Assembly: GCA_030540195.1 (NCBI GenBank) | Contig: JAUNWT010000008.1 | Span: 1-46,888 of the forward strand | Source of the DNA: Bacillota bacterium | GTDB taxonomy: Bacteria > Bacillota_I > Bacilli_A > Erysipelotrichales > Coprobacillaceae | DNA length: 46,888 bases | Reading direction: 5' to 3' | Part shown: positions 11,000-39,229 of the stretch, one piece after another | Layout: each line of letters opens with the position of its first letter | How positions within the stretch are numbered: position 1 is the stretch's first letter | Notes under the pieces: generated by a model | Seen by the model: the letters and a program-made list of their open reading frames with translations, nothing else | Database searches by the model: none | What the model was told of the DNA's origin: nothing | Translations under genes and position numbers: made by a program

Positions 11000-12388
11000 A
11001 TGGATAAAGAGGTTATTTTAGAAAAAGAAAAACAGGAAAATATACAAGAAGAAATAACGGTATTGCAAAATGAAAATCAAGAAGAAAGTATTGTTGATAC
11101 AGATAGTAAACTGAATAAATTGGTTTTAGATTATAAATATCAACCATTTGTAGATGAAATCTATCAACATTTAGATACAAAACATCAAGAACTATTAGAG
11201 GATGAATATAAAGCAATCACTTTAAGAAATGAAAAGTATGCACAAACATTACCAGGAATAGGTATACGACTTTATTTTAATTATAAAAAGAGTTTGTATT
11301 TTATAAATAGTGTTATCAGTTATCTATTTCATCAAATCGGTGGGTCACTTGCTTGGGCAGGTGCATTATGGTTTGTTTTAGGAAATATGTTTCGTGGTTT
11401 CTTATTTGATTTTTATTATCAAATCATTAAGATTTCTGATCCAATATTTCATAATTTAGCTGTCTTTTTTTATCGTAATAAAGTACGTTTAGCGGTAGCA
11501 CCAGATGATTTTTCTTTTAGTTTAGAAAAATGTGTTGCTAATTTAGATAATGATCCTTATGCCATTTGGCAAAAAACGCATGAAATTATTATTTTTGTCA
11601 CGTTTATGACCATTGTTCTTTTTATCATAAAAAATATTGTTTTTATTATTAAAAATGTAAAAACAAAAGATCAAGATGCAAAGCATCAATTTAAGTATGA
11701 TACAAAACGTTCTTTGTTTATGTTACAAGTTGATCAAGATGATAGCTTTAGCTATGTTAAACAAAACTTTAAACAACGTTTAAAAAGATATTGTGGAAGT
11801 GATTTTCAAAGAAGAAAATATATGACAAGTTATGTAAATGTTTATCAGAGTCATGTTTTAGAAACAAAAGAAGGTATGTCTTTAACTTCTAAAGAATATC
11901 GTAATGTTATTTTAGGTACAATTTGGGAAGGAATTATACATGTTATTTCATGGATTTCTTTTGTTTTTGCGTGCTCATTGGCGCTTATTGGACTATGTAC
12001 TTATTATATTCAATTTTGTAAAGATTGGCCTGTTGTAGCACAAACATATTCTCAAAGTAATTCAATTCCATTGATTAAAGAAATATTTTATGCTTGTTCA
12101 AAATTTATAGAACTTTTATCTATTACAATAGAAAATGATTTTGAAAGATTTATTTGGGGTGGCTATATTTTTGTTCTTATTGTTTTATTAGTTATAACTG
12201 TCTATAAACGTGTCATTCGACCAACAATGAGACATTATCGAAGAGGAATCAATTTTTATCTCAAAAAAGAAGCGGGGACTTATCAAGAAGAAGCTATTTT
12301 TAAAAGTGTTTCGGTCTTTAAGTTTTGGTCTTTTCTAGGTCTTTGTGTCTTTTTACCATTTGTTGTCTTTATTCTTTATAACATCTAA
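11000..12388 (+). CDS. Unknown multi-pass membrane protein
   Basis: A 462-residue protein that I do not recognise. The N-terminal ~75 residues are acidic and soluble (rich in E, Q and N). At least five hydrophobic segments follow, at about residues 110-140, 195-220, 310-340, 385-405 and 440-460. Between the second and third there is a long polar, basic, probably cytoplasmic loop (about 215-305) with KQNFKQRLKRYCGSDFQRRKYMTS. There is no signal peptide and no enzymatic motif. It has a good GGGAGG ribosome site and ends just before the T-box leader of argCJB. Its placement between argG and argC could hint at a link to arginine metabolism, but the sequence gives no direct support. Confidence 0.75.
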   Translation: MDKEVILEKEKQENIQEEITVLQNENQEESIVDTDSKLNKLVLDYKYQPFVDEIYQHLDTKHQELLEDEYKAITLRNEKYAQTLPGIGIRLYFNYKKSLYFINSVISYLFHQIGGSLAWAGALWFVLGNMFRGFLFDFYYQIIKISDPIFHNLAVFFYRNKVRLAVAPDDFSFSLEKCVANLDNDPYAIWQKTHEIIIFVTFMTIVLFIIKNIVFIIKNVKTKDQDAKHQFKYDTKRSLFMLQVDQDDSFSYVKQNFKQRLKRYCGSDFQRRKYMTSYVNVYQSHVLETKEGMSLTSKEYRNVILGTIWEGIIHVISWISFVFACSLALIGLCTYYIQFCKDWPVVAQTYSQSNSIPLIKEIFYACSKFIELLSITIENDFERFIWGGYIFVLIVLLVITVYKRVIRPTMRHYRRGINFYLKKEAGTYQEEAIFKSVSVFKFWSFLGLCVFLPFVVFILYNI

Positions 12389-12425: not shown

Positions 12426-12431
12426 GATTTT

Positions 12432-12660
12432 AAACTCGAGGACTAAAAGAGTAGTCTTTATGGAAATTAAAGCGATCCTATGTTGATGGAAGATAGGAAT
12501 GGAAATAAAGATGAAGCGCATTTACGAGAGAAAAGATGGAAATAAAAGTATATCTTTTGGTAGATCTGCCTTAAAGATGAAAGAGGTTGTAAGGTCAACT
12601 TGCAACAATTAGAGTGGTAACGCGGTCAATCGTCTCTATTTATAGAGACGATTTTTTATT
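12432..12660 (+). promoter_or_regulatory. T-box leader, apparent Arg (CGC) specifier
   Basis: A tRNA-sensing attenuator upstream of argC. The T-box core AGAGTGGTAACGCGG (12611-12625) differs from the consensus AGRGTGGNACCGCGG at one position. The terminator CGTCTCTATT-TATAGAGACG plus T-run (12631-12657) follows. In Stem I, TCTTTAT pairs with ATAAAGA. The 5' side of the specifier loop carries AGTA, and the 3' side reads GAAGCGCA at 12514-12521, which places CGC, an arginine codon, after the GAA of the loop-E motif. The base of Stem I pairs CTCG with CGAG. Uncharged tRNA-Arg would stabilise the antiterminator and switch the operon on. The T-box itself is firm; the exact specifier register is inferred and agrees with the downstream genes. 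Confidence 0.9.
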
Positions 12661-12681: not shown

Positions 12682-13719
12682 ATGATTAATGTCGGAATTG
12701 TTGGTTCAACTGGTTATGGAGGATGTGAGCTTGTAAGATTTTTATTAACACATCCTAATGTTAATATTGAATGGGTTTCATCAAGAACATATAGTGATCA
12801 AGAATATAGTGATGTTTATAAAAGTTATTTCACTTTATTAGATCAAAAATGTGTGGATGAAGATATTGAAAAATATTTAGATAATGTTGATGTTGTTTTC
12901 TTTGCAACACCTCAAGGGGTTTGTGCAAAGATGGTCAATGAAAATGTTTTAAAAAAAGTAAAGGTTATTGATTTATCAGCGGATTATCGTATTAAAGATG
13001 TTGAAACTTATGAATCATGGTATGGAATTAAACATGCTTCACCTGAATTTATTCAAGAAGCTGTTTATGGATTATGTGAAATCAATAGGGAAGATGTTAA
13101 AAAGGCGCGTTTGATTGCTAATCCTGGATGTTATCCTACATGTTCAATTTTATCGATTTATCCACTTGCTAAAGCAGGACTTATTGACATGGATACATTG
13201 ATTATTGATGCTAAAAGTGGAACAAGTGGTGCTGGTAGAGGTGCTAAAGTGCAAAATCTTTATTGTGAAGTGAATGAAAGTATTAAAGCTTATGGTGTGG
13301 CAAGTCATCGTCATACACCAGAAATTGAAGAACAATTAGGGTATGCTTCTTCATCAAAAGTATTACTTAACTTCACACCACATCTTATTCCAATGAATCG
13401 TGGAATTTTGATTACTGCTTATGCAAAGTTAAAAGAAGGAGTTAGCGAAGAAGAAGTTAAAAAAGCTTATGATATTTATAAGGATGAATATTTTGTACGT
13501 GTCTTAAAAGAAGGAAATGTTCCAGAAGTAAGAAATGTAAAATGTTCGAACTTTGTAGATGTTGCTTATAAAGTAGATCCTCGTACACATAGAGTTATTA
13601 TGATGGGAGCCATGGATAACCTCGTTAAAGGAGCTGCTGGACAAGCAATTCAAAATATGAATATTATGTTTGGTTTAGATGAAAAAACAGGGCTTATGTT
13701 AGCACCTGCAGTATTATAA
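12682..13719 (+). CDS. argC: N-acetyl-gamma-glutamyl-phosphate reductase
   Basis: The NADPH-dependent third step of ornithine synthesis. The 345-residue protein has the Rossmann motif GSTGYGGCELVRFL near the N terminus and the catalytic cysteine in NPGCYPT. The GTSGAGRGA and THRV segments typical of AGPR are also present. It is the first gene of the argC-argJ-argB operon under the T-box leader, and is followed 12 bases later by argJ. The start follows AGGGGGAAA. Confidence 0.97.
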   Translation: MINVGIVGSTGYGGCELVRFLLTHPNVNIEWVSSRTYSDQEYSDVYKSYFTLLDQKCVDEDIEKYLDNVDVVFFATPQGVCAKMVNENVLKKVKVIDLSADYRIKDVETYESWYGIKHASPEFIQEAVYGLCEINREDVKKARLIANPGCYPTCSILSIYPLAKAGLIDMDTLIIDAKSGTSGAGRGAKVQNLYCEVNESIKAYGVASHRHTPEIEEQLGYASSSKVLLNFTPHLIPMNRGILITAYAKLKEGVSEEEVKKAYDIYKDEYFVRVLKEGNVPEVRNVKCSNFVDVAYKVDPRTHRVIMMGAMDNLVKGAAGQAIQNMNIMFGLDEKTGLMLAPAVL

Positions 13720-26122: not shown

Positions 26123-26318
26123 AAATAGCGTATAAAGGAACTGTTATTATAAAAAATAGCAGTTTTTTTATTATTTTTAATAGTGTATAAAATATTTTAT
26201 ATAACTTATACAGTGTATGAAATAATGTGATATTATAGTTAATAGTGTATAATAAATGTATAAAACAATAAAATAAATCTATACAGTATATGAAAAACTG
26301 TTCTATAGTGTATAAAAA
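26123..26318 (+). promoter_or_regulatory. Array of about six AGTGTAT boxes upstream of the lac activator
   Basis: The 313-base gap before the activator gene holds repeated copies of a box close to (A/T)(C/T)AGTGTATRAAA. They sit at about 26124 (AATAGCGTATAAAGG), 26179 (AATAGTGTATAAAAT), 26210 (ACAGTGTATGAAATA), 26241 (AATAGTGTATAATAA), 26283 (ACAGTATATGAAAAA) and 26304 (TATAGTGTATAAAAA). The third lies inside the perfect palindrome ATACA-G-TGTAT (26208-26218). Intervals between boxes 2-6 are 30, 32, 41 and 22 bases, close to whole helical turns. They are probably regulator-binding sites. Nothing else of note lies in this gap except the cupin terminator. Confidence 0.62.
26139..26169 (+). terminator. 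Terminator after the cupin gene
   Basis: AACTGTTATT / AATAGCAGTT (one G-U pair) around an A-rich loop, then T-run. It lies between the first AGTGTAT box and the others. Confidence 0.72.
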
Positions 26319-26399
26319 TAGTGATTGTTAGAGATTTGTAAGCCCTAACAAAACGGTTTATAGTTGTAAGCGGTTAGAACAGTTGTAACGGAGGACAAC

Positions 26400-28985
26400 A
26401 TGAAAACAAAAAAAGAAATACTTTTAGAATTTATTCAAGAATATTCAAACCAATATCAAATGGAAGAATATCCCCAACTAACAACTTTGTTTCTATCCGA
26501 AAAATTGAATATGCAGCGAACAAATATTTCAACTCTTTTGAATCAATTAGTAAAAGAAGGAAAAGTAAAGAAGATTGATGGAAGACCTGTTTTATATCAA
26601 TTGGTTTTTAATGAAAATGAAAAACATGATTTTGAAAGTTTAATTGGTCATGATCAATCTTTAAAAGAAGCTATTATGCTAGCAAAGGCTGCTGTTTTAT
26701 ATCCTTCTGTTTTACCTAAGATTCTCTTAACTGCAGAAAGAGGAAGTGGAATTGATTGCTTTGTAAAGAGTATTTATGAATTTGCTGTAAAGTCAAAAGT
26801 ATTAAAAAATAATGCACCTTATATTATTTTTGATTGTCAATCTTATAGTGAGAATCAAAATAAAATTAAAGACATCTTTTTAGAAAATCAAGGTTTAATT
26901 CAAAAAGCAAATACAGGATTACTTTTTTTGAAAAATGCACATTTATTAGATGATTACTTATTATCTGATTTCTTACAATCAATGCAACATCTTGCAACAA
27001 GTGAGAAGTATAAATGTATTTTCATTTGTCATATTGATTCACTTCAAAAAATAAAATCCTATACACTTACAAATGAATTAGATTACACGATTTCTATTCC
27101 ACCCTTAAAATCAAGAAGTTTAAAAGAAAGATTTGATTTAATTAAGATGTTTTTAAATCAAGAAGCAAAACAAATTCAATGTTCTATTCAACTTGCAAAT
27201 ACTGTTTTGCACTCTTTGTTGCTCTATGAATGTTCAGGACAAATTAAAGAATTAAAAAATGATATTCATAATGCCTGTGCTAACAGCTATGTACGTATTC
27301 AAAAAAATGAAAGACATATTGAATTGCTTCTTTCTGATTTTCCAAATCATGTAAGAAAAGGCATGATTTATTATAAGCACTATAAAGATGAAATTGATGA
27401 ACTTGTTTCATCAAATAGTCAATATACATTTACAGGTGATCAAGTATTAAAAAGTACAGCTCTACAAAAAGAACATATTTATTCAACGATAGATGAAAAG
27501 AAAAAAGAATTAAAGAAACAACAATTGACCCAAGAAGAAACGGATTCTTTAATTCTTGTAGAATTAAAAAAAGATTTTCAAGAATATTTTTATCGTATTA
27601 CTGGAAATATTCATTCAAAAGAACAATTAGAAAAAATAGTATCATTAAAATTAATACAGGATATTGAAGAATTTTTAAATCAAATGTCTAATCGATATAA
27701 TATTCTTTTTGAAACAAAAACTTTATATGGATTAGCGTTACATATTGATACCGCAATTATTCAAACATCTAAAAAACAAAGACTATCGCCTAAAGAAAAA
27801 AATGATTTTATTCAACAATTTCCAGAGTATTATAAACAAACACTTCAATTTATTAAAAAAATTGATGAAGATTTTGGAATACACCTTCCTAATGATGAAG
27901 TCATTATGGTGATGTTATTTCTTATTTGTGGGCAAGAAGAAATACACCATCAAGAAGTTGTCACACTTATTGCAATGCATGGAGAACATACAGCAACATC
28001 CATTGTTGAAGTTGTTAAAAAGTTAAGTGGAAAGCAATCAATATATGGCTATGATTTAAAATTAGATCAAATGATCAATGAATCTTATGAAGAATTGAAA
28101 GAATATATTTTACATATTCATCAAGGAAAAGGAATGATTCTTATTTATGATATGGGTTCTATTCGTACGATGGCAGAATCAATAAAGATTGAACTTAATA
28201 TCGATATTGAATTTTTAGAAATACCATTAACACTTATTGCGATGGCGAGTGTCAATAAAGCAAATGAATTATTATCACTTAATGAAACATATCAATATTT
28301 ACAAGAACATTTTAAAGATCTTCAATATGTAAGAAATAATAGTCAAAAAGAAGCACTTGTATTGATTTCTTCACTAGAAAGTGAATTGGTACAAGCAAAG
28401 AATTATCTTTTAGAGCGTTTTGATTTGAAAGATATTGAAATTTTCTTGATACAAGAAAGTCAGATTGAATCTATTTATAATCGTATTGATCAAATTGCTA
28501 GTCAATATAAAATTAAAGGACTTATTTCTAGACAAGAAATTCACTTATCACAATTTACAATGATTCCACTTTCTAATGTTTATAAATTAAATGCTAAAAG
28601 TTTAGATGATCTATTTACAGATGAAGATGATTTAGAAAATCTATTTGATTATCTACAAGAACAGTTTGAAGATATTCAAATAGAAGATTTAAAACAACCA
28701 TTGATCCATTTTGCAAATAAACTTGAAATCATTTTAAATCAAAAAATAGATTATGATACACTTATTGGATTGTTAATTCATATTATATGTTTAATTGACC
28801 GTTTGAAAAAACATCTTTCACCAGCTGTCCATTTTCAAGCAGCAAGTGATATTCTAACAAAAGATAGAAGTACTGTTGAAAAAGTGAAAGAAATTCTTTT
28901 ACCAATAGAACAAATATGTCGTATTACTATTAGTGATGTAGAAGCTGCAACCATTATTTCAATTATAAAGGGGAAAGAACAATGA
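26400..28985 (+). CDS. LevR-like PTS-regulated transcriptional activator
   Basis: An 861-residue regulator. A winged HTH (about 1-70) is followed by an AAA+ sigma-54-activator-like domain (about 78-310), PRD1 (about 400-510), an EIIA-Man-like domain (about 515-640, candidate His in AMHGEHTA at H527/H530), a partial EIIB-like region and PRD2 at the C terminus. The AAA+ domain is degenerate: the Walker A region reads TAERGSGIDC (111-120), with Ile where Lys is required, and I see no GAFTGA loop. It therefore probably does not act through sigma-54 ATPase chemistry. It heads the lactose PTS operon, 0-4 base spacing to lacF, and an array of repeated boxes precedes it. Confidence 0.85.
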   Translation: MKTKKEILLEFIQEYSNQYQMEEYPQLTTLFLSEKLNMQRTNISTLLNQLVKEGKVKKIDGRPVLYQLVFNENEKHDFESLIGHDQSLKEAIMLAKAAVLYPSVLPKILLTAERGSGIDCFVKSIYEFAVKSKVLKNNAPYIIFDCQSYSENQNKIKDIFLENQGLIQKANTGLLFLKNAHLLDDYLLSDFLQSMQHLATSEKYKCIFICHIDSLQKIKSYTLTNELDYTISIPPLKSRSLKERFDLIKMFLNQEAKQIQCSIQLANTVLHSLLLYECSGQIKELKNDIHNACANSYVRIQKNERHIELLLSDFPNHVRKGMIYYKHYKDEIDELVSSNSQYTFTGDQVLKSTALQKEHIYSTIDEKKKELKKQQLTQEETDSLILVELKKDFQEYFYRITGNIHSKEQLEKIVSLKLIQDIEEFLNQMSNRYNILFETKTLYGLALHIDTAIIQTSKKQRLSPKEKNDFIQQFPEYYKQTLQFIKKIDEDFGIHLPNDEVIMVMLFLICGQEEIHHQEVVTLIAMHGEHTATSIVEVVKKLSGKQSIYGYDLKLDQMINESYEELKEYILHIHQGKGMILIYDMGSIRTMAESIKIELNIDIEFLEIPLTLIAMASVNKANELLSLNETYQYLQEHFKDLQYVRNNSQKEALVLISSLESELVQAKNYLLERFDLKDIEIFLIQESQIESIYNRIDQIASQYKIKGLISRQEIHLSQFTMIPLSNVYKLNAKSLDDLFTDEDDLENLFDYLQEQFEDIQIEDLKQPLIHFANKLEIILNQKIDYDTLIGLLIHIICLIDRLKKHLSPAVHFQAASDILTKDRSTVEKVKEILLPIEQICRITISDVEAATIISIIKGKEQ

Positions 28986-29290
28986 CAAAAGAAGAAGCAA
29001 GTATGATTGGTTTTGAAATTGTAGCTTATTCAGGAGATGCAAGATCTAAATTATTATTAGCAGTTGAAAATGCAAAAACAGGGAATTTTGATAAATGTGA
29101 TCAATTAATTGAAGAAGCAAATGCTTGTTTAGTTGATGCACATAAATCACAAACAGAATTATTACAACAAGAAGCACGTGGTAACCACGTAGAGGTTGGC
29201 TTTATTACGGTTCATGCACAAGACCATTTAATGACAACTTTATTATTAAAAGATATTATTTCAACATTAATTGATGTTTATAAAAAATAA
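28982..29290 (+). CDS. lacF: PTS lactose-family EIIA component
   Basis: A 102-residue all-helical EIIA of the lactose/cellobiose (Chb/Lac) family. The phosphorylated histidine is H78 in [10 protein letters not shown], at the same number as in known LacF. It passes phosphate from HPr to EIIB. The start overlaps the end of the activator gene by four bases (ATGA). It is followed by the EIICB gene. Confidence 0.93.
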
Positions 29291-29301
29291 GGAGAATGTG
29301 T

Positions 29302-30939
29302 ATGGATGCAATTATTAAGCCAATTGAAAAAATGAAACCATTTTTTGATAAAGTGGCAAGAAATAAGTATTTAAAAGCAATTAAAGATGGTTTTATTTCA
29401 AGTATGCCAATTATTTTATTTTCAAGTATCTTTCTATTAATAGCCTATGTTCCAAATGTTTTTGGTTTCTATTGGTCAAAAGAAATAGAAGCAATCATTA
29501 TGAAACCTTACAATTATTCGATGGGAATCTTAGCGATTGCAGTAGCAGCAACTACAACGAAACATTTTACAGATACTTTAAATCGTGAAATGCCAGCAAA
29601 TAATCAAATAAATAGTATATCAACGATGATTTGTGCTATTTGTGGATTCTTAATTTTAAGCAGTGATGCATTAGATGGCGGATTTGCAAGTGAGTTCATG
29701 GGATCAAAGGGATTACTTACTGCCTTTATGACAGCATTTGTGGTAGGAAGTATTTATAAATTTTGTATTAAACGTAATATTACAATTAAAATGCCTGAAC
29801 AAGTTCCTCCAAACTTATCGCAAACATTCAAAGATGTTATTCCGTTTGCTTTTTCAATGATCATTATTTGGTTATTTGATTATCTTTTTAGAATGGCTAC
29901 AGGTATTTGCTTTGCTAAAGGGGTTATTCAAGTGTTCCAACCATTATTTTCAGCAGCCGATGGTTATGTTGGTTTAGCACTTATTTATGGAGCAATGTCT
30001 TTATTCTGGTTTATTGGCGTTCATGGTCCATCTATTGTAGAACCAGCAATTTCAGCAGCATTAGTTTTAAATATGTCTACCAATTTAGCTGCTGTTCAAG
30101 CAGGACAACATGCTGATAAAGTTTTAACTTTAGGAGCACAATATTTTGTTGTCTGTTTAGGTGGAACAGGGGCAACTCTTGTTATATGTTTGATGTTTGC
30201 CTTCCTTGCTAAATCGAAAGAATTAAAGGCTATTGGAAAAGCGAGTTCAATACCAGTATTATTTAACGTTAATGAACCTTTCTTATTTGGGGCACCGATT
30301 GTTTTAAATCCAGTATTCTTTGTACCATTTATTTTTGCTCCAATCGCCAATGTTTGGTTATTTAAAATTTTTGTAGACGTCTTTAATATGGATGGTTTCA
30401 TCTATACTCTTCCTTGGACAACACCAGGGCCTCTTGGAATTGTACTTGGATGTGGTATTAAATTATTACCTGTTATCTTCTTGATTGTTGTTTTGGTAAT
30501 GGATTTTGTTATTTATTATCCATTCTTTAAAGTTTACGATAATCAAAAATTAGAAGAAGAAAAAAACAATCACTTTGAAGTAAAAGAAGATGAAAGTGTT
30601 GAAGTTGATGGAAAAGTATTAGACTCTAAAAAAATTCTTGTATTATGTGCCGGTGGGGGAACAAGTGGTTTACTTGCAAATGCCCTTGCTAAAGGAGCTA
30701 AAGAAGAAGGAATTCCATTAGTTACAGCTGCAGGCTCTTATGGAGCACATTTAGATATTATGGGTGATTATGACCTTGTTATTTTAGCACCACAAGTAGC
30801 TTCTTATTATGAAGATTTAAAGAAAGATGCAGATCGTATGGGAGTTAAATGCATTGCCTGTGAAGGAAAACAATATATTGATTTAACACGAAATCCAAAA
30901 GGTGCACTAGAATTTGTATTTAAGATTATGGGGGAATAA
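29302..30939 (+). CDS. lacE: PTS lactose-specific EIICB component
   Basis: A 545-residue permease-kinase: an N-terminal EIIC membrane domain of about ten hydrophobic segments (about 25-405), a charged linker rich in Glu and Lys (about 415-440), and a C-terminal EIIB domain. The EIIB active-site Cys is C449 in [10 protein letters not shown]. The conserved [16 protein letters not shown] motif of EIIC is present. I choose the ATG at 29302, seven bases after GGAG; the ATG two codons earlier is too close. The fusion order C-B is that of lactose transporters. Substrate is inferred from lacG. Confidence 0.92.
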
Positions 30940-32345
30940 TGATGAAATTTGCAGATGATTTTATTTTTGGTGGAGCTACAGCAGCTTACCAATGTGAAGG
31001 AAGTACAAGGGAATATGGGAAAGGAAAAGTTGCTTGGGATGATTTTTTAGCCAAAAAAGGTCGTTTTCAAGCAAATCCGGCAAGTGATTTCTATCATCAA
31101 TATCCTGTTGATTTAAAATTATGTAAGATGTTTGGTATCAATGGTATACGTATATCAATTGCATGGAGTCGTATTTTTCCTGATGGTATTGGAAAAATCA
31201 ATCAACAAGGCGTTGATTTCTATCATCAACTTTTCCAAGAATGTCATAAAAATGGGGTAGAACCATTTGTTACATTACATCATTTTGATACACCAAATAC
31301 TTTATTTCAAAAAGGTGATTTCTTAAATAAAGAAACAGTTGATGCTTTTGAAAAATATGCAAGTTATTGTTTTGAAGAATATAAAGATGAAGTAACCTAT
31401 TGGTTTACTTTTAACGAAATTTGGGCAGTTTGTACAAATCAATATATTGAAGGAACTTTTCCAAATGGAGAAAAGTATAATATGACAAAAGCGTTTCAAT
31501 CGATGCACTATATGATGCTTGCTCATAGCAAAGCGGTGTTAGCTTATAAAAAAGGTGGTTATAATGGAAAAATAGGGATTGTTCAATCATTGGAATATAA
31601 ATATCCTTATAACGAAAATAAATTAGAAGATATTATCGCAGCAAAAAATGAAGATGTTTTACAAAATCAATTCTTATTAGATGCTACTTTTTTAGGATAT
31701 TACAGTGATGAAACTTTAAAAATTGCGCAAAAATTATGTGCCCTTAATCAAGGAACATTAAATATTGAAGAAGCTGATCTAGAAGTCATGAAAAAAGCAG
31801 CTAAAGAAAATGATTATTTAGGTATGAATTATTATCAAAGCCGTTTTATTCAAGCATATGATGGCGAAAATGATATCTATCATAATGGTACAGGAGAAAA
31901 AGGAACATCTCGTTTTCGTTTAAAAGGTGTTGGAGAAAGAATGAATAAAGAAGGTATTGATCGTACAGATTGGGATTGGTTGATTCATCCTGAAAGTATG
32001 TTTGATATGCTTGTACGTATTAAACAACAATATCCCCAATATAAAGCAATCTATATTACGGAAAATGGAATGGGGTATAAAGATGATTTTGAAGATGGAA
32101 TTATTGATGATACACCACGTATTGATTATGTAAGAAGACATCTTTATTATTTACTAAAAGCGATTGAAGCGGGTGTTAATGTTAAAGGATATTTTATATG
32201 GTCGTTAATGGATATGTTTTCTTGGACAAATGGTTATAATAAAAGATATGGGTTATTTTATATTGATTACAAAACACAAAAAAGATATCCAAAAGCTTCA
32301 GCTTATTGGTATAAATATGTTTCACAAACAAAGGAATTGTTCTAA
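30939..32345 (+). CDS. lacG: 6-phospho-beta-galactosidase (GH1)
   Basis: A 468-residue GH1 enzyme that hydrolyses lactose-6-phosphate. The acid/base Glu is in TFNEIWA and the nucleophile Glu in YITENGMGY. Whole stretches such as ASDFYHQYPVDLKLCKMFGINGIRISIAWSRIFP and the C-terminal GYFIWSLMDMFSWTNGYNKRYG follow the LacG pattern rather than 6-phospho-beta-glucosidases. The start overlaps the lacE stop (TAATGATG); the second ATG at 30942 is equally possible. Product galactose-6-phosphate would need the tagatose pathway, not found in this window. Confidence 0.92.
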   Translation: MMKFADDFIFGGATAAYQCEGSTREYGKGKVAWDDFLAKKGRFQANPASDFYHQYPVDLKLCKMFGINGIRISIAWSRIFPDGIGKINQQGVDFYHQLFQECHKNGVEPFVTLHHFDTPNTLFQKGDFLNKETVDAFEKYASYCFEEYKDEVTYWFTFNEIWAVCTNQYIEGTFPNGEKYNMTKAFQSMHYMMLAHSKAVLAYKKGGYNGKIGIVQSLEYKYPYNENKLEDIIAAKNEDVLQNQFLLDATFLGYYSDETLKIAQKLCALNQGTLNIEEADLEVMKKAAKENDYLGMNYYQSRFIQAYDGENDIYHNGTGEKGTSRFRLKGVGERMNKEGIDRTDWDWLIHPESMFDMLVRIKQQYPQYKAIYITENGMGYKDDFEDGIIDDTPRIDYVRRHLYYLLKAIEAGVNVKGYFIWSLMDMFSWTNGYNKRYGLFYIDYKTQKRYPKASAYWYKYVSQTKELF

Positions 32346-32995
32346 TGATAAAAGGTGTTATCTTTGATTTTAATGGAACATTGTTTTTTGATAACGATAA
32401 ACATGTAAAAGCCTGGGGTGCAATTTCAAGGCTGTTAAGAAAGAAAGATATTACAGATGAGGAACTTCATAAACATTTTAATGGAGTTCCTAATCAAAAA
32501 ATAATCCAATATATGAAAAATAACCAAGCAACAAAAGAAGACATAGAATATTATTCAAAATTAAAAGAGAAATACTATCGACAATTTTGTAAAGAAGATC
32601 AAGCTTCATTTCATTTAGTTGAAGGAAGCTATGATTATTTCAAACAACTTAAAGATCAAAAAATTCCTTTTACAATAGCAAGCGCTTCTATTAAAGAAAA
32701 TATTGATTTTTTTGTTGAATCATTTCATTTAGATAAGTGGATGAAAGTAGAAGATATTGTTTATGATAATGGAACATATCAAAATAAAATAGCAATGTTT
32801 AAAGATGCAGCTTTAAAATTGAATGTCAATATTCAAGATTGTATGATTATTGAAGATTCTAAAAGCGGTATAGAAAATGCTTATCAAGCAGGATGTAGAC
32901 AAATTATTGTTGTAAATTCTGCAAATAATAAAAAAGAATATGAAAAAATGCCTGGAGTTATAAAAGTAATCGATGATTTTAAAGAACTTTTATAA
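32345..32995 (+). CDS. HAD-IA hydrolase / beta-phosphoglucomutase-like protein
   Basis: A 216-residue HAD-superfamily protein with a helical cap. Motif I is FDFNGTLF: the nucleophile Asp is present but the second Asp of DxDGT is Asn, as in several sugar-phosphatase subgroups. Motif II is TIASASIKEN, and motif IV is IIEDSKSGIENAYQAG. It overlaps the lacG stop by one base (TAATG), so it belongs to the lactose operon, and may dephosphorylate a sugar phosphate that accumulates there. The substrate is inferred only from context. Confidence 0.85.
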   Translation: MIKGVIFDFNGTLFFDNDKHVKAWGAISRLLRKKDITDEELHKHFNGVPNQKIIQYMKNNQATKEDIEYYSKLKEKYYRQFCKEDQASFHLVEGSYDYFKQLKDQKIPFTIASASIKENIDFFVESFHLDKWMKVEDIVYDNGTYQNKIAMFKDAALKLNVNIQDCMIIEDSKSGIENAYQAGCRQIIVVNSANNKKEYEKMPGVIKVIDDFKELL

Positions 32996-33015
32996 TACCT
33001 CCGGGTATTTTAATT
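32994..33015 (+). terminator. Weak hairpin at the end of the lac operon
   Basis: AATACC-TCCG-GGTATT followed by TTTAATT. The stem is short and the T-run poor. Confidence 0.4.
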
Positions 33016-33147
33016 AAAAGGAAAATGAGGATGATAAATAGTCTTAGTTTTCCTTGTTTTTTTATTGATCGAAATCTTTTTTACGTGTTTATTTTTACTT
33101 GTTTTGATAGACACATATTCTTTTTTTAATTCTTTAGTGTATTTCAA
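33010..33147 (-). CDS. Possible small basic protein (45 residues, TTG start)
   Basis: A TTG-started ORF directly after galE on the same strand, with GGAGGT seven bases upstream. It encodes a very lysine-rich peptide that reads MKYTKELKKEYVSIKTSKNK and then HVKKISINKKTRKTKTIYHP near the end. I do not recognise it. The ribosome site lies in the 3' arm of the galE hairpin, which could occlude it. Lysine-rich frames are common in AT-rich DNA, so this may not be real. Confidence 0.3.
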   Translation of the reverse strand: MKYTKELKKEYVSIKTSKNKHVKKISINKKTRKTKTIYHPHFPFN

Positions 33148-33180
33148 AATAAAAACCTCCAAAGTACTAACCTTGGAGGT
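33146..33180 (-). terminator. galE terminator hairpin
   Basis: On the minus strand ACCTCCAA / TTGGAGGT (8 bp) around a 10-nt loop, then TTTTTATTTTG. The 3' arm also looks like a ribosome binding site for the small ORF after it. Confidence 0.65.
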
Positions 33181-33190
33181 ATACTTCATT

Positions 33191-34168
33191 TTATTTACTG
33201 TTTTTTAAATGGAAATTCCATGCAGTTTGAATAATTTGTTTAATATCAGTGTATTGAGGTTGCCAACCTAAAATTTCTTTAGCCTTAGAATTATCAGCAA
33301 CTAATTTAGCGGGATCACCTGCACGACGAGGTGCCATTGTAACACGAATTGGAAGTTGAGTCACTTCTTTGGCAGCGTTGATAATTTCTAAAACAGAATA
33401 ACCTTCACCATTTCCTAAGTTAAATGTTTGACTTTGATTTCCTTGATAAAGATAGTTTAAAGCACGAATATGTGCATCTGCTAAATCATTTACATGAATA
33501 TAATCACGAATGCATGTGCCATCTTTTGTATCATAATCATTTCCAAAAACATAAATCGTTTCACGTTTTTTAAGTGGAACTTGTAAAACTAGTGGAATTA
33601 AATGTGTTTCAGGGTTATGTAATTCTCCAATTAGACCATTTTCATGAGCTCCACATGCGTTAAAATAACGTAAAGCAACATATTTCATGCCATATGCTTG
33701 ATCACACCACTTCATCATTTTTTCCATTGCTAATTTTGTTTCTCCATAGGTATTTGTAGGATTTGTTTCATCACTTTCAACGATTGGAATATGCTTAGGT
33801 TCACCATAAGTAGCGGCAGTAGATGAAAAAACAATATATTTAACATTATGTTCTTTCATAACTTCTAATAAACAAATCATTCCATAAACATTGTTATTGT
33901 AATATTCAAGAGGTTCTTTCATGCTTACCCCAACTAAAGAGTTTGCTGCAAAATGAATAACCCCTTTAATATCTTCTTTTTCAAAAACGCTATTTAAAAA
34001 TTCTTTATCACGTAAATCTCCTTGATAGAATTTTGCTTTAGGATGAATCAATTGTTTAAAACCTGTTTGTAGGTTATCAACGATAACAACATCTTCTCCT
34101 TTTTCAATTAATGCATAAACTGTATGAGAGCCTATATAACCAGCTCCTCCTAATACTAAAACACTCAT
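33191..34168 (-). CDS. galE: UDP-glucose 4-epimerase
   Basis: A 325-residue short-chain dehydrogenase/reductase that interconverts UDP-galactose and UDP-glucose. The NAD motif GGAGYIGSHT is at residues 7-16, the catalytic pair is in TYGETK, and the Ser of FSSTAATYG precedes it. It is divergent from galTKM, sharing the operator-rich region between them, and completes the Leloir set. Confidence 0.96.
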   Translation of the reverse strand: MSVLVLGGAGYIGSHTVYALIEKGEDVVIVDNLQTGFKQLIHPKAKFYQGDLRDKEFLNSVFEKEDIKGVIHFAANSLVGVSMKEPLEYYNNNVYGMICLLEVMKEHNVKYIVFSSTAATYGEPKHIPIVESDETNPTNTYGETKLAMEKMMKWCDQAYGMKYVALRYFNACGAHENGLIGELHNPETHLIPLVLQVPLKKRETIYVFGNDYDTKDGTCIRDYIHVNDLADAHIRALNYLYQGNQSQTFNLGNGEGYSVLEIINAAKEVTQLPIRVTMAPRRAGDPAKLVADNSKAKEILGWQPQYTDIKQIIQTAWNFHLKNSK

Positions 34169-34202
34169 TTTTAGTCCTCCTCGATGATTTAATTCTATAC
34201 TT

Positions 34203-34279
34203 TTAGTAAAATTTAGTCAATAAATTAGTAAAATATTTACTAAAAATAGTAAAAATATTTGACAATATTTACTAAAATG
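34203..34279. promoter_or_regulatory. Galactose regulator operators between galE and galT
   Basis: The divergent region holds repeated TAGTAAA / TTTACTA half-sites. The best is the palindrome TTAGTAAAATATTTACTAA at 34225-34243 (8-bp arms, 3-nt centre). Other half-sites lie at about 34203, 34213 (TAGTCAA), 34247 and 34268. The same elements occur at the LacI-family regulator's promoter (39132-39162), which supports it as the ligand. Confidence 0.75.
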
Positions 34280-34318
34280 ATACAATAAGTATAGAAAGAA
34301 AGTGGAGGAAAGAATAAA

Positions 34319-35809
34319 ATGAATCATCAAATTAATCGACTTATTCATTTTGGTTTACAACATCATTTAATCACAGAAGATGATGAAATTTATGCAGTGA
34401 ACTTATTATTAGATTTATTTCATTTAGATCATTTTACTAAAGAAAAAATAAATGAAGAATTAGAAGTGGCGACAGATATTTTAGAAGAAATGTTGAATTA
34501 TGCAACACAAGAAGGTTTGATTGAAGATAATATAACCGAAAGAGATCTTTTTGATACACGTATCATGAATTGTTTAATGCCTCGTCCAAGTGAAGTGATT
34601 CAAACATTTAAGAAGTATTATCAAGAAGACGAAAAAAAGGCAACAAAGTATTTTTATGATTTATCGATTGCATCGAATTATATTCGAAAAACAAGAACGG
34701 ATAAAAATATTCGTTTTAAACAATTTTATAAATATGGAGATATTGAAATTACGATCAACTTATCTAAACCAGAAAAAGACCCAAAGGAAATTATGAAGGC
34801 AAAGACAATTAAAGCGAGTGGTTATCCAAAATGTCTTTTATGTAAAGAAAATGTAGGTTTTGCAGGTAACTTTAATCATCCTGCAAGACAAAGCCATCGT
34901 ATTATTCCTTTAATGTTAAATGGACATCGTTATTACATGCAATATTCACCTTATGTTTATTACAATGAACATTGCATTGTCTTTAATGAAAATCATCAAC
35001 CAATGGTGATTAATGAAAATACCTTTAGATCATTGTTTTCATTTGTTAAACAATTTCCACATTATATGTTAGGTTCTAATGCGGATTTACCTATTGTAGG
35101 AGGATCTATTTTAACACATGATCATTTCCAAGGAGGACATTATACTTTTCCAATAGAAGGGGCAACAGTTGTTAAAGAAATATCTTTAGATCAATATCCT
35201 GATTTACAAATCAATGTGTTAAATTGGCCTTTATCAACGATTCGAGTACGTTCAACAAATGATGAACAAATGATTCAATTTGCTTTAGATACTTTAAATA
35301 AATGGATCAATTATTCAAATGAAAAATTGGATATTATTGCCTATAGTAATGAAACAAGACATAATACGATTACGCCAATTTTAAGAAAGAAAAAGGAATT
35401 GTATGAAATGGACCTTGTTTTAAGAAATAATCGTACAAGTGAAACATATCCTGATGGTATTTTCCATCCTCATCAAAACTTACATCATATTAAAAAAGAA
35501 AATATTGGTTTAATTGAAGTCATGGGACTTGCTGTTTTACCAGCAAGATTAAAAGATGAATTAGAAGTTTTAAAAGAATGTTTATTAGGGAAAAAGAATA
35601 TTTTAGAAATTTCAAATATGCAAAAACACATCCCATGGTATAATGAATTAAAGAGCCATGATTTTAATGAAGATACAGTGGATCAATTACTTAAAGAAGA
35701 ATTAACGCATAAATTCGTTAATGTATTAGAAGATGCAGGTGTCTTTAAAATGAATGAAGAAGGAAAAGAAGCTTTTATTAAATTTGTAGAAATGGTAGGA
35801 GAAAAATAA
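34319..35809 (+). CDS. galT: UTP/UDP-glucose-hexose-1-phosphate uridylyltransferase (GalT, Firmicute type)
   Basis: A 496-residue Leloir enzyme that exchanges UMP between UDP-glucose and galactose-1-phosphate. It is the longer Firmicute GalT type rather than the ~350-residue enterobacterial HIT-type. Characteristic blocks are ARQSHRIIPLMLNGHRYYMQYSPY and the histidine-rich LTHDHFQGGHY. It starts after GTGGAGGAAAG and overlaps galK by one base (TAATG). Confidence 0.95.
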   Translation: MNHQINRLIHFGLQHHLITEDDEIYAVNLLLDLFHLDHFTKEKINEELEVATDILEEMLNYATQEGLIEDNITERDLFDTRIMNCLMPRPSEVIQTFKKYYQEDEKKATKYFYDLSIASNYIRKTRTDKNIRFKQFYKYGDIEITINLSKPEKDPKEIMKAKTIKASGYPKCLLCKENVGFAGNFNHPARQSHRIIPLMLNGHRYYMQYSPYVYYNEHCIVFNENHQPMVINENTFRSLFSFVKQFPHYMLGSNADLPIVGGSILTHDHFQGGHYTFPIEGATVVKEISLDQYPDLQINVLNWPLSTIRVRSTNDEQMIQFALDTLNKWINYSNEKLDIIAYSNETRHNTITPILRKKKELYEMDLVLRNNRTSETYPDGIFHPHQNLHHIKKENIGLIEVMGLAVLPARLKDELEVLKECLLGKKNILEISNMQKHIPWYNELKSHDFNEDTVDQLLKEELTHKFVNVLEDAGVFKMNEEGKEAFIKFVEMVGEK

Positions 35810-37083
35810 TGAAAAAAGCAAGTTTAGTGATTAAAGAAATTCAAGAGGGAAGTTATAATGATATTTTAAAAGTAGTTTATATTGATGAAAATCGTATTGA
35901 AAAACAACCTCAAAGATATGTAGAAGCCATTGAAAAATTTATTTCACTTTATGGGGATCAAGAAATTGAAATTTATAGTACACCAGGTAGAAGTGAAGTG
36001 AGTGGAAATCATACTGATCATCAAAATGGTGAAGTTTTAGCAGCCGCTATTAATTTAGATATTATTGCTGTTGTTTCTAAAAATTATGTCGTAAAAGTTT
36101 TATCAGATGATTATGATTTAAAACCTATTTCTTTAGATGAATTATCAAAAAAAGAAGATGAAGTAGGAACATCTGAAGGTTTAATGAGAGGTGTTCTTGC
36201 TCGCTTTAAAGAATTAGGCTATGAAATTGGTGGATTTAACGCTTATATGACAAGTGATGTTTTACAAGGGTCAGGGTTATCTTCATCAGCAGCCTTTGAA
36301 GTCATGATTGGAACCATTCTTTCAGGACTTTATAATGAAATGAAAGTCGATCCTGTCGTGATTGGACAAGTGGGACAATATAGTGAAAATGTCTATTTTG
36401 AAAAACCATGTGGTTTAATGGATCAAAGTGCTTGTTCCGTAGGAAGTTTAATTCATATTGATTTTAAAGATAATAGTAAGCCCGTTGTTGAAAAAGTAGA
36501 TGTTGAATTTTCTTCATTTAAACATAGTTTATGTATTGTTGATGTCCATGCTTCTCATGCTGATTTAACAGATGATTATGCAGCTGTTCCTTATGAAATG
36601 AAAAAAGTAGCTCAATTTTTTGGTAAAGAAGTTTTAAGAGAAGTGGATGAAAAAGATTTTTATGATCAATTAGTAGAAGCAAGAAAAGAAGTGGGAGATC
36701 GTGCGATTTTAAGAGCAATTCATTTATTTAATGAAAATAAACGTGTTGAAAAAGCAGTTGCTTCTTTAAAAAATAATGATTTTGAAACCTTTAAACAAGT
36801 CATTAAAGCTTCTGGAGATTCGTCCTATAAATACTTACAAAATGTTTATTCAAATAAATATCCAGATAATCAAGCTGTTTCTTTGGCACTTGCTTTATCA
36901 GAAGGTATTTTAGAAAATCATGGTGTATGTCGTGTTCATGGGGGAGGATTTGCGGGAACGATCCAAGCCTTTGTAGAAGATGGATATGTTGATCATTATA
37001 AAGAAGAAATTGAAAAGTATTTTGGTGAAGGTTCTTGTCATGTTTTAAAAGTAAGAAAATTTGGTGGAATGAAGGTACTTTAA
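35809..37083 (+). CDS. galK: Galactokinase
   Basis: A 424-residue GHMP kinase that phosphorylates galactose. The sugar motif is GRSEVSGNHTDHQNG (usually GRxNLIGEHTDYNGG, so several positions are substituted). The ATP motif is LQGSGLSSSAAFE and the third motif GGGFAGTIQAF. The substituted sugar motif appears normal for this divergent group next to long GalT proteins, but I cannot confirm specificity from sequence. Confidence 0.9.
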   Translation: MKKASLVIKEIQEGSYNDILKVVYIDENRIEKQPQRYVEAIEKFISLYGDQEIEIYSTPGRSEVSGNHTDHQNGEVLAAAINLDIIAVVSKNYVVKVLSDDYDLKPISLDELSKKEDEVGTSEGLMRGVLARFKELGYEIGGFNAYMTSDVLQGSGLSSSAAFEVMIGTILSGLYNEMKVDPVVIGQVGQYSENVYFEKPCGLMDQSACSVGSLIHIDFKDNSKPVVEKVDVEFSSFKHSLCIVDVHASHADLTDDYAAVPYEMKKVAQFFGKEVLREVDEKDFYDQLVEARKEVGDRAILRAIHLFNENKRVEKAVASLKNNDFETFKQVIKASGDSSYKYLQNVYSNKYPDNQAVSLALALSEGILENHGVCRVHGGGFAGTIQAFVEDGYVDHYKEEIEKYFGEGSCHVLKVRKFGGMKVL

Positions 37084-37084
37084 G

Positions 37085-38101
37085 ATGATTAAAATAGAAA
37101 AAGTAGAAAATAATATTGATTTAATTACAATTAAAAATGATGAGTTAGAAGTTGTTGTTTCTAATTATGGATGTACGCTTGTTAAAGTGTTGATGAAAGA
37201 TCAAGCAGGAAATATTGATGATGTGGTTTTAGGATATGATGATTTTAAATCTTATCAAACATTAGATGCTTATATTGGTGCTCTTGTTGGAAGAGTGGCT
37301 AATAGAATTAAAAAGGGAACATTTGAATTAAATGGACAAACCTATCATTTACCAATCAATAATGGACCAAATTCCTTACATGGAGGAATCAAAGGTTTCT
37401 CTTATCAAGTATTTGATTATCAAGTGTTAGATGAAACGAGTGTTGAATTCCATTATGTTTCTAAAGACGGAGAAGAAGGGTATCCTGGTACGTTAGATTT
37501 CAAGGCAGTTTACTTACTCGAAGGGGACACACTTACGATGCATTATCATGCGACAACTTCTAAAGATACACTTATTAATATTACCAACCATTCGTATTTT
37601 AATTTATCAGGTAAAAAAGAAAATGTGTATCAACATTTATTAAAAGTCCATGCTGATCAATTTGCATGTATTGATCCTGATGGTCTTCCTACAGGTGAAA
37701 TAAAAGATGTCAAAGGAACTTCCTTTGATTTCAATGAATTTGCCTATATTGGAGATCGTGTAGATAATGAGGATGAACAATTACAACTTGGTAAAGGATT
37801 CGATCATCCAATGATTTTTAATACAAAAGAAAACCAAGTCGAATTAGTTCATGAAAAAACAGGAAGAAAATTAACTGTTTCAACGACTTTACCCCAAGCG
37901 CAAATCTACACAGCCAATTATTTAGATGGTCGCCTTGGTAAATATGGTCAACATTACAATGCACGTGATGCTATCTGTATTGAAACACAAAATATGCCTG
38001 ATGCGATTCATCTAGAAGAAAATCCAAGTACGATTTTAAAAGCAGGCGACACTTATGATGAAAAGACATCTTATAAATTTGAAGTTTTAAAAAATCTCTA
38101 G
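37085..38101 (+). CDS. galM: Aldose 1-epimerase (mutarotase)
   Basis: A 338-residue epimerase interconverting alpha and beta galactose. Family markers are the N-terminal GCTLVKVLMKD, GRVANRIKKGTF, the catalytic His of ITNHSYFNLSG, and the catalytic Glu in CIETQNMPDA. It starts two bases after galK and closes the galTKM operon. Confidence 0.94.
   Translation: MIKIEKVENNIDLITIKNDELEVVVSNYGCTLVKVLMKDQAGNIDDVVLGYDDFKSYQTLDAYIGALVGRVANRIKKGTFELNGQTYHLPINNGPNSLHGGIKGFSYQVFDYQVLDETSVEFHYVSKDGEEGYPGTLDFKAVYLLEGDTLTMHYHATTSKDTLINITNHSYFNLSGKKENVYQHLLKVHADQFACIDPDGLPTGEIKDVKGTSFDFNEFAYIGDRVDNEDEQLQLGKGFDHPMIFNTKENQVELVHEKTGRKLTVSTTLPQAQIYTANYLDGRLGKYGQHYNARDAICIETQNMPDAIHLEENPSTILKAGDTYDEKTSYKFEVLKNL

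Positions 38102-38120: not shown

Positions 38121-38122
<2 letters not shown>
38091..38122. terminator. Bidirectional terminator between galM and the regulator
   Basis: AAAATCTCTAG / CTAGAGATTTT, an 11-bp stem around a 9-nt loop, then T. It overlaps the galM and regulator stops. Confidence 0.82.
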
Positions 38123-39125
<1,003 letters not shown>

Positions 39126-39131
39126 TTATCA

Positions 39132-39162
39132 TTTAGTAAACTTGAAATCAATATTTACTAAA
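39132..39162. promoter_or_regulatory. Operator at the regulator's own promoter
   Basis: TTTAGTAAA (39132-39140) and TTTACTAAA (39154-39162), 9-bp inverted arms separated by 13 bases, between the regulator and the M16 peptidase gene. These match the half-sites at galE/galT. Confidence 0.7.
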
Positions 39163-39229
39163 ATATCATCTTCGTTTACAAAACATCTATTCAAAGGTAA
39201 AATAAGGAGTAAAGAAATGAGGTAGTACA

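Follow-up and report, generated by a model that had tools for sequence, protein, structure and literature searches.

A conserved operator-like array ahead of a lactose PTS operon and its LevR/CelR-like regulator in a genome without detected rpoN

The repeated boxes at positions 26123 to 26318, ahead of a putative lactose phosphotransferase (PTS) operon, are genuine and not a product of chance, and the array formed by them is very probably, judging from comparative data, the binding place of the neighbouring sugar-sensing regulator. The whole analysed stretch of 46,888 nucleotides, from a bacterium of the Coprobacillaceae, is called the window here. The array is best explained (probability roughly 0.6) by a PTS-gated regulator which would work without sigma-54, would have kept its ancestral operator and, sitting at about position -60, would probably activate its own gene together with the lac operon. 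The features concerned are the following (centres of boxes are given relative to the predicted -10 element; sites were scored with a 10-mer matrix at a cut-off of 6).

26126-26135, plus strand: outlying weak box TAGCGTATAA, with a terminator-like hairpin downstream of it; matrix score 9.8 of 14.4
26181-26190, plus strand: box 1, TAGTGTATAA, core centre at -173
26206-26215, minus strand: box 2, CACTGTATAA, centre at -149, read by eye and below the matrix cut-off
26211-26220, plus strand: box 2', CAGTGTATGA, centre at -143, overlapping box 2
26243-26252, plus strand: box 3, TAGTGTATAA, centre at -111
26279-26288, minus strand: box 4, TACTGTATAG, centre at -76
26306-26315, plus strand: box 5 (proximal), TAGTGTATAA, centre at -48, about -60 from the predicted start
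26336-26341, plus strand: predicted -35 element TTGTAA (promoter scan)
26337-26350: second cre-like copy, one mismatch to TGWAANCGNTNWCA
26359-26364, plus strand: predicted -10 element TATAGT (promoter scan), 17 bp spacer
26365-26378, plus strand: cre-like sequence TGTAAGCGGTTAGA, covering the predicted start point (about 26371), one mismatch to TGWAANCGNTNWCA
26400-28985, plus strand: regulator with wHTH, degenerate sigma-54 AAA domain, PRD1, EIIA-man and PRD2 (Pfam, alignment and model)
28982-29290, plus strand: lactose PTS EIIA, overlapping the regulator gene by four bases
29296-30939, plus strand: lactose PTS EIICB
30939-32345, plus strand: 6-phospho-beta-galactosidase
32345-32995, plus strand: HAD-family phosphatase, closing the putative operon

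The box and its regulator

A protein-based search yielded 78 loci with relatives of the regulator (26–97% identical) from Erysipelotrichia, Lachnospiraceae, Clostridium, Streptococcus, Enterococcus and others. Intergenic DNA up to 4 kb from the regulator genes was ranked for 74 non-redundant loci (73 fetched loci and the window, 72.9 kb in total; near-duplicates L066, L129, L130, L131 and L143 excluded). Among all 9-mers, AGTGTATAA took rank 1, being present in 56 of the 74 loci versus about 1.8 expected from dinucleotide shuffles; its reversed form did not occur in the same 72.9 kb. None of the 29 control loci, of which 17 were further LevR-like loci and 12 were rpoN, LacI or pattern loci, contained AGTGTATAA. 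Alignment of 187 sites from 67 loci, seeded with [AT]GTGTATA, gave an asymmetric 10-mer site with the consensus (T/A)(A/T)GTGTATAA. Its first base differed between loci whose regulator carries the GAFTGA loop (T in 26 of 31 sites) and GAFTGA-less loci (A in 87 of 119). Of the latter loci, 57 of 65 had GTGTATAA; in the other eight it was not found within 4 kb, some of these being cut by contig ends. The operators of NrdR, ArgR and CopY, considered as candidates, were dropped once the co-occurrence with the family was clear.

Within the window's genome, AGTGTATNAA had 53 matches versus 39 for the reversed control. Groups of at least three boxes within a few hundred bases were confined to the array and to positions 54-189 of contig C4, where the group lies upstream of another PTS operon with IIB-IIC genes. 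In congener G004, whose contig is longer, the same four C4 boxes come right after the gene of a regulator paralogue and precede the PTS genes in question. A genome scan for the box before other PTS genes, as had been proposed, leads to a second tight group at a paralogue-linked PTS operon, and a random scatter of box copies, named beforehand as the contrary outcome, is not what was found. The pair pattern GTGTATAAN{40,70}GTGTATAA occurred twice in the window's genome, both times in this array, and had no match in congeners G001 (72% complete), G002, G003 and G005, which are without a close copy of the regulator; with shorter gaps it was absent from the window's genome and gave chance-like matches elsewhere.

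The idea that a single protein, the adjacent LevR-like regulator, reads all boxes ahead of its own operon gains support from comparative genomics, since the box accompanies the family and is found again at the paralogous PTS operon of the same genome. On these grounds we are highly confident that the regulator at 26400-28985 binds the boxes. Reading by some other conserved regulator which happens to control PTS operons is very improbable: the window's genome does encode other regulators, and the link between regulator and box is itself drawn from sequence comparison, but the loci were picked by the regulator protein alone and represent several PTS gene orders, and the box still ranks first; it is also found with the paralogous regulator and the PTS operon there, and congeners without the regulator are without paired boxes. 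The recognition-helix region, moreover, was the best conserved part of those measured (mean 0.73).

The regulator consists of 861 residues and has the LevR/CelR-type architecture of N-terminal HTH, AAA, PRD and EIIA-man domains; Pfam matches were to PRD, EIIA-man, a TrmB-like HTH (below cut-off) and the sigma-54 activation domain (weak). His448, His527 and His794 in the PRD and EIIA domains are kept; in the family alignment, the PRD1 and PRD2 histidines are present in 26 of 26 rows and that of EIIA in 25. An AlphaFold2 model (mean pLDDT 83, pTM 0.41) matches the AAA domains of LuxO and VpsR, besides EIIA-like domains.

The lac operon, with the HAD gene last, adjoins galE, galT, galK and galM (window 32345-38101). 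In the window's genome lacD had no match and lacB none over the cut-off; galactose 6-phosphate may be dephosphorylated and then enter the Leloir pathway. Repeats similar to TTTACTAAA, seen by eye at the gal genes (34190-34290) and at 39140-39165, at a LacI-type regulator gene (38121-39113), are likely a GalR operator. Other observations were a T-box leader at 12430-12640, upstream of the gene at 12682, and the recurrence of AGTGTATAAA at similar offsets in the first 40-85 bases of contigs C68, C71, C96, C131 and C141 of the same genome; two such contig ends which were read (L054, L055) have a repeated sequence in common.

Geometry of the array

AGTGTAT occurs on the plus strand at 26182, 26212, 26244 and 26307, with further variants at 26285 (AGTATAT) and 26127 (AGCGTAT). 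The original prediction had placed the last five boxes 30, 32, 41 and 22 bases apart, close to whole helical turns. These spacings are correct for starts at 26182, 26212, 26244, 26285 and 26307 if orientation is ignored. The second and fourth boxes of that series are minus-strand sites, however, and the array, as read with the consensus, is one of five sites in alternating orientation (+, -, +, -, +). The centre spacings then become 24, 38, 35 and 28 bp, or 2.3, 3.6, 3.3 and 2.7 turns of 10.5 bp, which gives no support to simple helical phasing. The palindrome ATACA-G-TGTAT, which had also been pointed out, does exist at 26208-26218; it is incidental, consisting of two overlapping opposite sites, box 2 and box 2'. 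Box 2 shares its register with minus sites in Anaerostipes and Kandleria. The sixth and most upstream copy, at 26126-26135, may lie outside the array proper; it is identical in L005. All five boxes are unchanged in G004, whose regulator is 97% identical, and a search of Rfam gave no match at the array.

The same succession, + - + - + at about -182, -149, -111, -76 and -48, was found with all or most of its sites in Anaerostipes, a Lachnospiraceae MAG, Thomasclavelia and Kandleria, and the sequences between the sites were on average only 39% identical (composition alone would give 32%). Sites in register numbered 21 of 32, or 13 of 24 without L068 and L069, the test reusing some of the loci which had defined the register; Markov shuffles gave a mean of 0.38 and a maximum of 3 in 2000 runs, and rotation of the upstream DNA a mean of 2.45 and a maximum of 15 in 5000, none reaching 21. 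By locus, the counts were four of four in L067, L068 and L069, three in L114 and L080, two in the window, one in L141 and none of four upstream in L132, which is a close relative. In the window, sites of like orientation are separated by 62 and 63 bp; in relatives the distances are 71 and 60-64 bp, which supports a fixed geometry and not whole-turn phasing.

Chance clustering in AT-rich DNA could be invoked, AGTGTAT being common across the window (11 copies versus 5.74 expected, four of the 11 in the array). It has a negligible probability when set against the restriction of tight groups to two places, the conservation in G004, the 9-mer ranking, the empty control loci, the register test and the pair pattern.

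Promoters, sigma-54 and the direction of control

The LevR-like mechanism with sigma-54, which had been implied by the original prediction, is not borne out in the window: neither a GAFTGA loop nor Walker motifs, rpoN or a -24/-12 promoter were found. Aligned with GAFTGA-bearing relatives, the regulator has the GAFTGA loop deleted, and its Walker motifs are lost (GPTGVGKT of CelR-like relatives is replaced by AERGSGID, LFLDE by LFLKN). RpoN (PF04552, Sigma54_DBD) was not detected in the window's genome, which is 97% complete, and TGGC-N8-TTGCW with up to one mismatch revealed no sigma-54 promoter between 24057 and 27206.

These losses extend over the family. In a tree of 72 proteins (19 duplicate, truncated or interrupted rows excluded), 54 GAFTGA-less proteins, including the regulator, formed one group with support 100; its sister group comprised nine GAFTGA-bearing Clostridium-type proteins (support 98), the joint group of 63 having support 100. 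Sigma54_DBD was detected only in G013 among 11 genomes with a close member (E below 1e-90, the window's genome counted), and not in the other ten; in 48 further genomes it was over the cut-off in 22, one hit being a fragment. RpoN was present in all five genomes with a GAFTGA member; among the genomes searched which have only GAFTGA-less members it was present in 17 of 43 and not detected in 26, some of which incompleteness of MAGs may account for. A second, separate GAFTGA-less LevR-like group (L018, L019, L021, L023) was also noticed; no rpoN was detected in the genomes and no AGTGTATAA box was found at these loci.

The promoters downstream of the box divide in the same manner. At each of the nine GAFTGA loci, GTGTATAA boxes are followed by a TGG(C/T)A...TTGC sigma-54 promoter (seven by scan, two more by reading); none of the 65 GAFTGA-less loci has a box-linked one, two distant matches in L099 and L125 being chance-like. 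In the latter loci, sigma-70-type -10 elements accumulate at 52-53 bp (6 versus 1.03 expected) and 60-62 bp (18 versus 1.98) from the start of the box, in a histogram made after the spacing had been noticed by eye; other distances are near background. This count leaves out the nine GAFTGA loci, the truncated L139 and the near-duplicates L066, L111, L129, L130, L131 and L143, and L068 was probably missed because a reading frame is open 150 bp upstream. The window belongs to the 52-53 bp class (TTGTAA-17-TATAGT), the C4 paralogue operon to the 60-62 bp class. A genome-wide search with a promoter-plus-box pattern, covering the 60-62 bp class and not the window's own spacing, gave six matches versus six in the control, only the C4 PTS promoter being convincing. 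In the window, where 13 promoter-like sites were found versus 7.5 expected, the -35 element is weak and both -35 and -10 are non-consensus; nevertheless, the window promoter is in all likelihood of the sigma-70 type.

Sigma-54 might still act close to the start codon through a promoter of non-canonical form, GCGGTTAGAACAGTTGT, whose GG...TTG(T/C) element was seen again, on reading by eye, in several relatives' upstream DNA, though few in number. This is most improbable, with a spacing one base too long, a regulator without GAFTGA and Walker motifs, no rpoN found, and an element which is better read as cre-like. The latter reading also applies to the GCGGTTAG...AGTTG element near the start codon, in preference to a second operator or a stretched -24/-12 promoter. 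Cre-like matches numbered seven in the window versus 4.24 expected, and the best match to the CcpA model in the window's genome reached 255 bits, below the cut-off of 442. One cre-like site covers the predicted start, where it may serve catabolite repression.

Class I activators such as CRP have their site at -61.5 or -71.5. A fixed distance between site and promoter, as expected of such activators, is apparent from the two peaks, which correspond to a proximal box near -60 or -69 relative to the predicted start. The following course of events is proposed. The regulator would be derived from CelR/LevR-type enhancer-binding proteins that work with sigma-54. Its winged-helix DNA-binding domain, its box and its histidines phosphorylatable by the PTS would have been kept, whereas the GAFTGA loop and a functional ATPase would have been lost, as would, in this genome, sigma-54 itself. 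It would bind the five-site array, in which the proximal box is centred some 60 bp ahead of a promoter of the housekeeping type, would most likely contact RNA polymerase directly, in a class I-like manner, and no longer remodel a sigma-54 polymerase. This contact would most likely switch on the regulator's own gene, lacFEG and the HAD gene, gated by PTS phosphorylation, and the cre-like site over the start point would probably add repression by glucose.

Activation is, on balance, the likelier direction of control. Repression from the bound array, by an upstream nucleoprotein complex or a loop which shuts off the promoter as long as the PTS state is unchanged, for which GalR-like repression is a model, appears rather unlikely in the window, although it is not without parallels in the family. 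A reversed box inside the promoter spacer was seen in 10 of the 27 promoters listed, in the branch with Clostridium, Erysipelothrix and Breznakia, and combines there with strong TTGACA promoters; in L073, L075 and L078, boxes lie, by eye, near or downstream of the promoter of the regulator's own gene. The window and its closest relatives have no box in the spacer or the -10 element, the window's non-consensus -35 and -10 also speak against a repressor, and PMC10864463 describes CelR and LevR, which are characterised relatives, as activators. The spacer boxes, together with boxes near or downstream of the own -10 element in some members, indicate that activation is not general. For the whole PTS-controlled branch (Erysipelotrichia, Lachnospiraceae, Clostridium, Streptococcus) it seems somewhat probable that the sigma factor was switched: contact with sigma-54, GAFTGA and ATP hydrolysis would have been dropped and the ancestral box kept, remote enhancers would have become sigma-70 operators at a fixed distance, and the regulator would act as an activator in some branches and a repressor in others.

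The promoters with the reversed box between -35 and -10 are strong PTS promoters (L096, L097, L099, L100, L102, L108, L112, L116, L119, L123), and at these loci a cre-like sequence often lies over the -35 element. At L128 of Streptococcus sanguinis (about 11818-12060), which has a family member and no detected rpoN, box-like sequences followed by a TTGACA promoter and an EIIA-like gene were noticed by eye.

Comparison with known systems

A UAS motif of CelR is said to have been published by Nie in 2016 (cited in PMC10864463), and the box may be identical with it. That no operator of this sequence was known, as the original prediction had it, may therefore not hold: the box also lies ahead of sigma-54 promoters at loci of CelR-like regulators. 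The literature searched, which took in few subscription papers, gave no report of a LevR/CelR-like regulator or branch working without sigma-54, and no title among the matches listed named AGTGTATAA as an operator. Activators of the CelR/LevR type using sigma-54 and homologues without it are already known.

According to PMC10864463, CelR and LevR are sigma-54 activators with upstream sites; CelR works at -24/-12 promoters and has ATPase activity, and LevR of Bacillus subtilis has its UAS at -125. In PMC3162934, LevR/CelR-like activators are placed in sigma-54-containing Firmicutes. The window's regulator resembles CelR of Clostridium acetobutylicum and Bacillus thuringiensis in its HTH, AAA, PRD and EIIA-man architecture, its PTS operon target and its several upstream sites, and probable relatives in Clostridium carry the GTGTATAA box; CelR depends on sigma-54, whereas the window protein has neither GAFTGA nor Walker motifs and its genome no detected rpoN. 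LevR of B. subtilis, compared here by its domains, has a similar domain order and PTS control, but is sigma-54 dependent.

Enhancer-binding-protein homologues which lost sigma-54 are represented by TyrR, DhaR and HupR, with GAFTGA lost or changed and sigma-70 used (PMC3162934), and by VpsR, a fold match of the regulator model. These four differ in domain layout and are not PRD/PTS-controlled LevR-like proteins. Their DNA-binding domain is C-terminal. With class I activators (CRP) the regulator would share the proximal site at about -60 or -69, in separate loci; the window differs in its alternating array of several sites, and the contact with polymerase is a proposal here.

Control of lactose and beta-glucoside PTS genes by such regulators is predicted in gut Erysipelotrichia, Lachnospiraceae and some streptococci without sigma-54, and automatic annotation could mislabel proteins of this family as sigma-54-dependent. 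The box is common to closely related regulators that possess or lack the sigma-54 machinery; these form a natural series in which a change of sigma factor can be studied, and comparison of such neighbours could test what an enhancer-binding protein needs for working with the housekeeping RNA polymerase.
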